From Phycisphaerales bacterium (GTDB taxonomy: Bacteria; Planctomycetota; Phycisphaerae; Phycisphaerales; UBA1924): a DNA stretch of 64,000 nt. The stretch is taken from contig JAJDDM010000080.1 in the NCBI GenBank assembly GCA_029260315.1, positions 1 through 64,000 on the forward strand. The letters are read 5' to 3'. Position 1 is the first letter of the stretch. Each line of letters starts with the position of its first letter. Position numbers and translations under genes: made by a program. The notes under the pieces were generated by a model. It was given only the letters and a program-made list of their open reading frames with translations, was not told the DNA's origin and searched no databases. Positions 60,912-64,000 of the stretch are shown piece after piece.

Positions 60912-62084
60912 TCAGTCTGATTCGAAGGCGAGGCCGACGCGTTCGCCCTGGGCGCGGATCGCCTTGAGCAGCGCGGACTCGAGTGTCTCGCCCTGAGCGC
61001 CCTTGACGCGCTCGGCGGCGACGTAGGCGTCCCTGGCCTTGGAGAGTTCCTGGATGCGGGTCTGGAGCTTCGCCCGCTCGGCCTGCTTCTGCTCGACGTA
61101 GGCCACTCGCTCATCGGGCTTGAGGTTCTTCATCTCCTCGGGCAGCTCATCCGCGTCGATTTCTTTCAGATCGACCTCGCCCTCCTTGAACGCGTCGACG
61201 AGGTCCCACATCGCGTTGCGGTAGAGCGCGCCAGCTTTGGCGGTTGCCCGCTGAGCCGCGGCGGGTGCGCTGGCGTCCTCGGCGCTCGCGTCGGCGGCTT
61301 CTTGACGCATCCGGCCCTCGGCGGCGTGGGCGCCGTAGGCGATGTAGGTCCGGTTCAGTTCGACGCCGAGGCTGATGAGCTGTTCGTCCTGGGGGGCGGC
61401 GATGGGGGCGAGATCGGCGTTGTGGTCGATGAAGGAGTACTCGCCGTCGCCGAGGCGTGCGCCGTCGGCCCAGCCGGAGTCGATGCCGGTCTGGCGGTCG
61501 CCGCAGTGGATGGTGTTGACGATGACGCCGCGGGCGATGGCCTCGGGGACGGCCTGGCGATAATCGACGCCGCCCTGGGTGAACGGCTCGTTGCCGGCGA
61601 TGACGATCATCTTGAGGACATTACGGTCTTCGGACCAGGTCAGGCCCTTGGCGGCGGCCTCGATGACGGCCCCGCAGTACTCCTCGCCGCCGTTGGTGCG
61701 CAGGGCGAAGAGGGCCTGGGATACGGCGTCGAGGTCGCTGGTTAGCGGGAGGATCTGGCGGAGCTGGTTCTCCTGGAGGGATATCGACTGCTTGCCGTAC
61801 TCATAAAGGGAGACCTCGAGGATTGGCGGCTGTCCGTCGCGCCGGCTGGTGGCGAGTTCATTGACGATGGCCCAGAGCTGGGTCTTGGCCTGCTCGATCA
61901 GGCCGTCCATGCTGCCGGAGGTGTCCAGCAGCAGGGCGAGCTGGACGAGGGGACGCTCGGCGTCGCGGTCGATCAGGAGCGGCTCGGTCGCGGGATTGGG
62001 CTCGGCCGGGGCAGTCTGGGCCGCGGCGAGCGGGACGAGGCCGGCAAGTGTGGTGAGGGCCAGCGTTCGGGTGAGGCGTGTCAT
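60912..62084 (-). CDS. Secreted VWA-domain protein
   Basis: 390 residues with a signal peptide ending AAAQ. The von Willebrand factor A domain has the full MIDAS start ALLLDTSGSMDG (about residues 52-63), TNGGEEYCGAVIEAA, MIVIAGNEPFTQGG and VNTIHCGDRQTG. The C-terminal about 130 residues are charged helical, probably coiled coil (VAYVEQKQAERAKLQTRIQELSKARDAYVAAERV). A metal-ion-dependent adhesion or assembly role is usual for the domain; partner unknown. Confidence 0.88.
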   Translation of the reverse strand: MTRLTRTLALTTLAGLVPLAAAQTAPAEPNPATEPLLIDRDAERPLVQLALLLDTSGSMDGLIEQAKTQLWAIVNELATSRRDGQPPILEVSLYEYGKQSISLQENQLRQILPLTSDLDAVSQALFALRTNGGEEYCGAVIEAAAKGLTWSEDRNVLKMIVIAGNEPFTQGGVDYRQAVPEAIARGVIVNTIHCGDRQTGIDSGWADGARLGDGEYSFIDHNADLAPIAAPQDEQLISLGVELNRTYIAYGAHAAEGRMRQEAADASAEDASAPAAAQRATAKAGALYRNAMWDLVDAFKEGEVDLKEIDADELPEEMKNLKPDERVAYVEQKQAERAKLQTRIQELSKARDAYVAAERVKGAQGETLESALLKAIRAQGERVGLAFESD

Positions 62085-62197: not shown

Positions 62198-62237
62198 ATC
62201 GGCTGCGCCGATCGCGGGCGGGATGCCCGCAACCCCG
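62198..62237. repeat. 40-nt two-hairpin element, copy 1
   Basis: Hairpin one pairs ATCGGC (62198-62203) with GCCGAT (62207-62212) around TGC. Hairpin two pairs GCGGGC (62214-62219) with GCCCGC (62225-62230) around GGGAT, and AACCCCG follows. It ends 52 bases before the MBL-like gene. A second copy is at 63016-63055. Confidence 0.75.
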
Positions 62238-62289
62238 TTTCTCAGACCAGGGCGCGGCACTCGACGATCGCGGCTACATTTGGCTTGTC

Positions 62290-62973
62290 ATGGATGTGCG
62301 GGTTGTGAGCATCGGGGCCTTGGCGACGCACCCCTTGTGGGGTGAGAGGTCGGCGGTGCGGACCGGGCACGCGACGTGCTCGCTGATTCGGAGTGGGGAG
62401 GCGTCGATCCTCGTGGATCCGGGCTTGCCGGGGCAGGTGATCGCCGCGAGGCTCGGCGAGCGGGCCGGGATCGAGCCTGACGCGATCACGCACGTCTTTC
62501 TGACGAGCTTCAAGCCGGAGACGACGCGCGGGCTGGCGGCGTTCGATCGGGCGACCTGGTGGATCCACGAGACCGAACGTGAGACCGTGGGCGTGGCGCT
62601 GGCGATGGAGGCTCGGCGGGCGAGCGAGAGCGGGGACCGCGAGCTTGGTGAGACGCTCGCCAAAGATGTCGCGCTCTTGCGGAACTGCGAGGCCGCGCCG
62701 GATGAGCTGACCGGCGGCGTGAGTCTCTTTCCGCTTCCCGGAGTCTCGCCCGGCATGTGCGGGCTCATTATTAGCGAGGCGCTGGGGACGACCGTGATCT
62801 GCGGCGACGCCCTGGCGACGGTCGAGCATCTGGACCAGGGCCAGGTGCTCACGCCCGCGGCGGATGTTGATCAGGCCCGTGAGAGCTTCGGAGAGGTCGT
62901 GGAGATCGCGGATTGGATCGTGCCGGGGCGGGATAATCTGGTGGCGAATCGCGGGCGGCGGGGGGCGTTCTAG
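62290..62973 (+). CDS. Metallo-beta-lactamase-fold protein lacking the metal-binding motif
   Basis: 227 residues. The fold is recognisable from SLIRSGEASILVDPGLPG (the Asp before the first strand pair), ITHVFLT, ATWWIHETERE, and FPLPGVSPGMCGLIISEALGTTVICGDALATVEHL. However, the place of the HxHxDH motif reads SFKPET (residues 73-78), with all four metal ligands replaced, and the later HTPGH segment reads VSPGM. The protein should bind no metal, or bind differently, and so is perhaps not a hydrolase. It is the sole gene between the divergent VWA gene and proS. Confidence 0.72.
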   Translation: MDVRVVSIGALATHPLWGERSAVRTGHATCSLIRSGEASILVDPGLPGQVIAARLGERAGIEPDAITHVFLTSFKPETTRGLAAFDRATWWIHETERETVGVALAMEARRASESGDRELGETLAKDVALLRNCEAAPDELTGGVSLFPLPGVSPGMCGLIISEALGTTVICGDALATVEHLDQGQVLTPAADVDQARESFGEVVEIADWIVPGRDNLVANRGRRGAF

Positions 62974-63015
62974 CTCGCCGCGACTTGATCGTGATTGCGT
63001 TGAGCGGCTTCCATC

Positions 63016-63055
63016 ATCGCCTTCGGCGATCGCGGGCGAGACGCCCGCCACCCCG
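63016..63055. repeat. 40-nt two-hairpin element, copy 2
   Basis: Hairpin one pairs ATCGCC (63016-63021) with GGCGAT (63025-63030) around TTC. Hairpin two pairs GCGGGC (63032-63037) with GCCCGC (63043-63048) around GAGAC, then CACCCCG. It ends 36 bases before the proS start. The fifth pair of hairpin one is C-G here and G-C in copy 1. Confidence 0.75.
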
Positions 63056-63091: not shown

Positions 63092-64000
63092 ATGAGCGAC
63101 ACGATTGCGACGACACGCCGGGGCGAGATCAAGAAATGGTCTCAGACGTTGATCCCGACCGCGCGCGAGGCCCCGGCGGATGCCGAGACGCCCAGCCACA
63201 TCCTGCTCAGCCGGGCGGGGTTCATTCGGCGGACGGGCGCGGGGATGTACAGCTACCTGCCGCTGGCCTGGCGGAGCCTGATGAAGATCTCGCAGATCGT
63301 GCGCGAGGAGATGGAGGCGGCGGGGGCGAGCGAACTGCTGATGCCCGCGGTGATCCCGATCGAGCTGTACAAGGTGACCGGGCGCGACGAGGCGTATGGC
63401 GAGCTGCTCTTTCGCGTACACGATCGGCACGGGCGGGAGAACGCGCTGGGGCCGACGCACGAGGAGGTCATCACCGACATCTTCCAGCACGCGATCAACA
63501 GCTACAAGCAACTGCCGCTGACGGTGTACCAGATCCAGACGAAGTTTCGCGATGAGTTCCGTCCGAGGGCGGGGCTTCTGCGCTGCCGCGAGTTCATCAT
63601 GAAGGACGCGTACTCGTTTCACCTGACCGTGGACGGGCCCGGCGGGCTGAACGAGACGTATGACGCGCAGTACGCGGCGTATGTGCGGGTCTTCGAGCGC
63701 CTGGGACTGGATTTCACGGTCGTGGACGCCGAGAGCGGGCCGATCGGGGGCTCGGCGAGCCATGAGTTCATGGTCAACGCCGAGAGCGGGGAGGACAAGA
63801 TCCTGGTCTGCGACTCGTCGGGCTATGCGGCGAACGTCGAGAAGTGCGAGATCGGTGAGCGGGCGTGGAGCTTCGAGGGCGAGGCGCTGGGGGATCTGGC
63901 GAAGGTGCATACGCCGGGGATGGCGAGCATCGAGGACATCGGCAGGTTCATGAAGGTGAAGCCGGCGAACATGCTGAAGACGATGGTGTTCGATGCGGGC
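63092..64000 (+). CDS. proS: Prolyl-tRNA synthetase, 5' part (cut by window end)
   Basis: 303 visible codons of class II prolyl-tRNA synthetase in the cytoplasm. Motif 1 region: LLSRAGFIRRTGAGMYSYLPLAW; motif 2: ENALGPTHEEVITDIF and QIQTKFRDEFRPRAGLLRCREFIMKDAYSFH; then GPIGGSASHEFMV. The end of the window falls in the inserted (YbaK-like) editing domain, so this is the bacterial type. The frame has no stop before the window end. The two-hairpin element lies in its leader. Confidence 0.96.
   Translation, partial: MSDTIATTRRGEIKKWSQTLIPTAREAPADAETPSHILLSRAGFIRRTGAGMYSYLPLAWRSLMKISQIVREEMEAAGASELLMPAVIPIELYKVTGRDEAYGELLFRVHDRHGRENALGPTHEEVITDIFQHAINSYKQLPLTVYQIQTKFRDEFRPRAGLLRCREFIMKDAYSFHLTVDGPGGLNETYDAQYAAYVRVFERLGLDFTVVDAESGPIGGSASHEFMVNAESGEDKILVCDSSGYAANVEKCEIGERAWSFEGEALGDLAKVHTPGMASIEDIGRFMKVKPANMLKTMVFDAG

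Follow-up and report, generated by a model that had tools for sequence, protein, structure and literature searches.

Two nearly identical 40-nt elements, each made of two hairpins, stand in front of two neighbouring genes of a Phycisphaerales bacterium, and the question raised by this locus is whether they are leader RNAs of these genes or pieces of mobile DNA. Both options had been put forward in the initial annotation of the window, i.e., of the whole 64-kb stretch of DNA that was analysed. They are weighed here against the host genome (G000), the genome of a second species of the same genus (G001, a Phycisphaerales MAG that is 70% complete) and 59 other related genomes.

Two copies of a two-hairpin element in the window

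The two copies (34/40 identity) are spaced 818 nt apart and differ at positions 5, 8, 11, 24, 27 and 34. Direct comparison confirmed what had been claimed for them, namely a length of 40 nt each, six differences, and a swapped base pair at positions 5/11 of the first stem (Table 1). The remaining differences had all been assigned to loops or the tail. This is correct for positions 8 and 24 (loop) and 34 (tail) but not for position 27. This base pairs from the 3' side with position 23 at the upper end of stem 2, as G.T in the first copy and as G-C in the second, so that the difference is a wobble at the edge of the stem rather than a loop change. Whether folded as RNA or as DNA, both copies form two separate hairpins, and the RNA fold of copy 1 is modestly better than that of shuffled sequences (z −1.4). 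Hairpin 2 comprises 7–8 bp and a loop of 3 nt (3–5 nt in copy 1). Start codons follow at the distances annotated initially: 52 nt separate copy 1 from the ATG of the MBL gene (62290), and 36 nt separate copy 2 from that of proS (63092).

Table 1. Positions of the two element copies, their parts and the adjoining genes in the window
Feature	Position	Strand	Remarks
vWA-domain protein gene (outside element)	60912..62084	−	PF00092; divergent from copy 1
Copy 1, type 1	62198..62237	+	ATCGGCTGCGCCGAT C GCGGGCGGGATGCCCGC AACCCCG; orthologous copy upstream of the MBL gene in G001, with C-G in stem 1
Hairpin 1 of copy 1	62198..62212	+	6-bp stem, G-C at pair 5/11
Hairpin 2 of copy 1, putative REP palindrome	62214..62230	+	Minus-strand head GTTG, a degenerate GTRG
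Tail of copy 1	62231..62237	+	Complement of a GTRG-type head
Metallo-beta-lactamase-fold (MBL) protein gene (outside element)	62290..62973	+	PF00753
Copy 2, type 1	63016..63055	+	ATCGCCTTCGGCGAT C GCGGGCGAGACGCCCGC CACCCCG; without counterpart in G001
Hairpin 1 of copy 2	63016..63030	+	C-G at pair 5/11
Hairpin 2 of copy 2, putative REP palindrome	63032..63048	+	Minus strand GTGG-CGGGCGTCTCGCCCG
Tail of copy 2	63049..63055	+	Complement of the GTGG head
proS, prolyl-tRNA synthetase gene (outside element)	63092..64000, past window end	+	PF00587

A dispersed family confined to one genus

A covariance-model search of the host genome and its relatives, as suggested in the initial annotation, uncovered a family of dispersed copies. 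The relatives had been expected there among the Phycisphaerae, which agrees with G001 being a Phycisphaerales MAG. The model was built from six copies and applied with strict filters, so that the 24 matches in G000 and the 20 in G001 are lower bounds; four low-scoring matches (C14:8091, C1:1049, C27:53055 and one on C439 of G001) were omitted from the tallies. None of the other 59 related genomes contained more than one weak, mostly in-gene match: a single match of this kind was present in G002, which belongs to the same genus, and in five of the 58 other relatives. These matches (G002, G008, G028, G036, G066 and G079) were dismissed as chance because they lie in predicted genes and do not resemble the family. 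Run against about 85,000 species genomes, own genome excluded, the exact pattern matched only 'Phycisphaerales bacterium OFTM188', which is the second species. The element, very probably a REP (repetitive extragenic palindrome), has about 20 copies per genome and is restricted to one Phycisphaerales genus.

One might ask whether the likeness of the window copies reflects a local duplication, or whether the palindromes arose by chance or by mutation. While the copies are merely 818 nt apart, about 40 further copies with covarying stems exist in the two genomes. The 40-nt IUPAC pattern of the pair (at most three mismatches) matched the 64 kb only at the two copies and in none of 100 shuffles, i.e., zero matches are expected. 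The genome-wide family refutes this explanation, to which we assign a negligible probability. Matches of the 3-mismatch pattern in the own genome beyond the three true copies were dropped as they look like chance matches in coding sequence.

Most copies of the family are of a second type, in which hairpin 1 is unchanged and hairpin 2 reads GGCGGC-AGGAT-GCCGCC, followed by GCCCCG. A 22-base type 2 pattern occurs at 19 places in G000 and at 18 in G001, and at no more than two in any other genome. Since the additional copies found with this pattern also have a hairpin-1-like palindrome in front, the whole two-hairpin unit appears, as far as can be judged from sequence, to be the dispersing entity. 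In rarer subtypes hairpin 1 is paired with GACCGGCAGGGTGCCGGTC-CTACC. A third two-hairpin subtype, ATCGCTTCGCGAT followed by GACCGGCAGGGATACCGGTC and CTACC, is conserved between both species in one intergenic region (C451 of G001, C124 of G000); beside it, type 2 copies stand at differing positions.

Paired changes in the stems

When 21 distinct copies were aligned without gaps, five base pairs (1/15, 5/11, 18/32, 19/31 and 23/27) proved to be changed on both sides. Doubly changed cells numbered 20, compared with 5.3 in shuffles, whereby the aligned copies are related and these counts do not represent independent events. Not one of 500 shuffles equalled the observed double-change count or covariation score; structures slid along the alignment as controls scored low. 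The same two-hairpin structure was returned unprompted by RNAalifold. The two window copies by themselves could not show selection, whereas the genome-wide family can; the earlier proposal of selection for structure over sequence is borne out at that level. Inversion of a hairpin was discarded as the origin of the swap at 5/11 because an inverted palindrome gives back identical stem arms.

An RNA that acts from the plus strand should tolerate G.U pairs and avoid A.C pairs. The wobble departures in the family are symmetric (9 G.T and 10 A.C cells) and devoid of strand bias. This pattern fits a structure that is constrained in the DNA, or in both strands, better than one constrained in a plus-strand RNA. 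Stem complementarity of this kind is already described for REPs, and a REP accounts for the compensatory swap without an RNA regulator.

Turnover between the two species

At the orthologous locus of G001 only the copy in front of the MBL gene is found, and none of the proS or MBL loci fetched from other relatives carries the element. Both forms of stem 1 (G-C and C-G) occur in both species, so that the swap at the MBL site is compatible with a double substitution or with the replacement of one subtype by another, and either may have taken place. For seven G001 copies the neighbouring genes were located in G000, and the element is missing there at six. The gmk site (G001 C329:4923) was not counted as an empty site because G000 has other or degenerate units there. 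In two further pairs of contigs (C451/C124 and C407/C127) both species share an element-bearing intergenic region, in which the elements differ in position or type. With a species identity of about 75%, insertion and deletion at the polymorphic sites are indistinguishable, and no target-site signature was seen at them.

Placement relative to genes

When genes were called with a simple codon-usage gene caller, 36 of the 40 clear copies proved to be intergenic, with non-coding DNA amounting to about 9%. On their 3' side, 20 copies face the stop codon of a gene on the opposite strand, ten of them within 25 nt, as opposed to only 12 intergenic copies that are followed by a gene start (at 11–565 nt). 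The family as a whole therefore does not share the leader-like position of the window copies, whose location before the MBL gene and proS would be incidental.

These data bear directly on the idea of a cis-acting 5'-leader RNA of the two genes, for example a riboswitch-like element or an attenuator. Such a role would agree with the placement of both window copies and of a copy on C88, each followed at 36–52 nt by a start codon in the same orientation, and with the MBL copy at the orthologous place in G001. It conflicts with the preponderance of stops over starts in the family at large, with the absence of the element from proS in G001 and from the relatives' fetched loci, and with the lack of a G.U excess on the plus strand. 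Moreover, an Rfam search of the window yielded no family at gathering score, and a promoter scan found no sigma-70-like promoter upstream of the copies. We consider a leader RNA very unlikely.

The frequent proximity to stop codons could instead suggest a bidirectional element of 3' ends, serving as a transcript terminator or as a stabiliser of mRNA 3' ends, and the GC-rich hairpins do form on both strands. Yet neither window copy has a T-run terminator according to a terminator scan, 12 copies face starts, and copies are gained or lost between the species. Proximity to stops is also compatible with a REP, since REPs often occupy 3' UTRs, and a 3'-end element as the explanation of the family strikes us as improbable. 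By analogy with REPs elsewhere, the hairpins before the MBL gene and proS might nonetheless modulate mRNA ends or supercoiling.

REP features and single-hairpin relatives

Read on the minus strand, type 1 consists of (C)GGGGTGG-CGGGCGTCYCGCCCG-C and then the companion hairpin, and by its sequence the first part resembles a GTRG-headed REP palindrome. The minus-strand head is GTGG or GTAG in most type 1 copies, GTTG in copy 1 and GCGG in type 2; the latter falls inside the GYRG head range (PMC3733652). GT(A/G)G heads, RAYTs (REP-associated tyrosine transposases) between two inverted REPs and complementary mutations were described for REPs by Nunvar 2010 (PMC2817692), and GYRG/GTGG variants, complementary stem subfamilies and PVC members by Di Nocera 2013 (PMC3733652). 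Paired stem changes, GTGG/GYRG heads, RAYT flanks, occurrence in PVC bacteria and intragenic REPs are all on record in these two studies.

The core of type 1 hairpin 2 also exists without the companion, with about 35 occurrences in G000 and a patchy distribution (0 to 79) in the other genomes of the order. In G000 these single-hairpin REPs, GTGG-CACGGGCGTCCCGCCCGTG, are spread across the genome (e.g., C59, C75, C122 and C165), and several form inverted pairs about 30–50 bp apart in a BIME-like manner. The single-hairpin relative (GTGG-CACGGGCGTCCCGCCCGTG or GTGG-GACGGGCG) stands inverted on either side of RAYT domains in G039 and G040. The 2.5-Mb genome G040 has 79 copies of a GGGCGAGACGCCC REP, which on C3, C33 and C47 forms tandem arrays with periods of 21, 36 and 40 nt. 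A further REP family of the host, GTAG-ATCGGCTCTCCGAGCCGAT, is located inside the frames of alaS (C165) and leuS (C80).

A RAYT flanked by two-hairpin units

On contig C136 of G000, a Y1_Tnp (RAYT) domain shares the reading frame of Ham1/rdgB (PF01725 and PF01797) in a gene whose end is beyond the contig edge. The domain retains the HUH motif PDHVH and the WQ motif, both described for RAYTs (PMC6006769). Two-hairpin units stand on both of its sides, inverted and with their tails outermost (ACTCGGGC-TAC-GCCCGAGT with CGGCGGCAGGATGCCGCCGCCCCG, and TTCGGCCC-TGCC-GGGCCGAA with CGGCGGCAGGATGCTGCCGCCGCCCCG); RAYTs are defined by just this kind of placement, between two inverted REPs (PMC2817692). 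Hairpin 2 and tail of one flank (CGGCGGCAGGATGCCGCCGCCCCG, 24 nt) are identical to those of dispersed type 2 copies, and those of the other (CGGCGGCAGGATGCTGCCGCCGCCCCG) are a variant with a small insertion in hairpin 2. The flanking units have first hairpins that are longer palindromes, with a sequence unlike that of hairpin 1 in the dispersed copies.

Judged by these shared sequences, the family is probably mobilised by a RAYT. Both RAYT and copies are present in G000 and both are missing from G002; in the 70% complete G001 MAG no RAYT was found despite approximately 18 type 2 copies. No RAYT with type 1 two-hairpin units on its flanks was encountered. Small free IS200-like Y1 transposase genes of G000 (about 90–150 aa; C119, C43 and C121) were rejected as mobilisers because they are flanked by palindromes of their own, e.g., CCAGGGGCTTCAGCCCCTGG.

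RAYT domains inside housekeeping genes

In-frame RAYT domains near the same loop of rdgB/Ham1, between RFVCVMxLA and RGxFxGRIG, were encountered in five genera (G000 C136, G014 C9, G016 C14, G027 C105 and G039 C66; that of G016 was confirmed with Pfam). The repeats that flank them are read through as peptides such as GTGFQPV. Likewise, RAYT domains are in frame in valS (G039 C9, G040 C143 and G071 C60) and in leuS (G000 C80), and inverted GTGG/GTAG REPs flank those in valS of G039 and G040 and in leuS of G000. The rdgB-borne RAYTs share 45–56% identity with one another, about the same as with those in valS, and may stem from repeated insertion or from old inheritance with turnover. No reports of RAYT domains inside rdgB, valS or leuS were found in the open-access literature. 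As a tentative idea that we hold to be possible rather than probable, RAYT/REP units of this order may be in-frame passengers in loops of housekeeping enzymes (RdgB in five genera, ValS and LeuS). In that case translation would yield the transposase as a domain inserted into the host enzyme, and from there it would disperse the two-hairpin elements in the genus of the window. The location of these domains raises the question of what allows a mobile transposase to persist within an enzyme with a housekeeping role.

Discussion

The 40-nt element is very probably a REP with a companion hairpin, that is, a small non-autonomous mobile DNA dispersed in one Phycisphaerales genus. Of the two options contained in the initial annotation, the mobile REP-like palindrome has been upheld and the leader RNA has not. 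The mobile REP reading is supported by a family that is dispersed, mostly extragenic and insertion-polymorphic, by the covarying stems, and by the similar units around the RAYT. Against it count the different hairpin 1 of the flanking units and the type 2 head, which is GCGG instead of GTRG.

We propose that the RAYT would bind the folded single strand through the hairpin and the GTRG or GCGG head, would cut beside the head, and would then move or copy the unit. Copies that no longer fold would go unrecognised and be lost, so that stem changes would survive in pairs, and both window copies would be insertions of this sort. Dispersal by a RAYT combined with the loss of non-folding copies could thus explain the paired stem changes, the restriction to one genus and the presence/absence differences between the species. 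What began as an odd pair of hairpins thereby becomes a defined REP family of one genus, whose host genome also encodes a plausible transposase, and this in the Planctomycetota, a phylum for which few REPs have been described.

How does this family compare with known systems? With RAYT/TnpA-REP proteins (PF01797; PMC6006769) the C136 domain shares the HUH motif (PDHVH), the WQ motif and the inverted flanking REPs with heads outermost. It differs in being located in frame inside rdgB rather than in a free-standing gene. Like Rickettsia palindromic elements (cited in PMC3733652), in-frame palindromes are tolerated inside genes; by contrast, the copies described here are mostly intergenic, and the in-frame cases are mainly RAYT-carrying units. 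REPINs and BIMEs are composites of more than one palindrome that move as a unit, as the element appears to do. Whereas a REPIN consists of two inverted REPs in one long hairpin, the element folds into two hairpins that differ in sequence and stand next to each other.

The closest system is the GTAG/GTRG REP superfamily (PMC2817692; PMC3733652), exemplified by the GTGG-type GTAG-20 of Opitutus terrae. Common to both are a short GC-rich palindrome with a small loop and, in most type 1 copies, a one-sided GTRG-type head, as well as occurrence at dispersed, extragenic places, subfamilies with complementary stems, and inverted units around a RAYT. Unlike members of that superfamily, the element has a second, nearly constant hairpin, ATCGSCTKCGSCGAT, beside the palindrome on the side opposite the head; its commonest subtype is GCGG-headed, and it is found in a single Phycisphaerales genus. 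The family differs from the REPs on record in the constant second hairpin, which makes this a two-hairpin REP unit whose second hairpin appears to travel with the REP, in the restriction to one genus, and in a RAYT inside rdgB.
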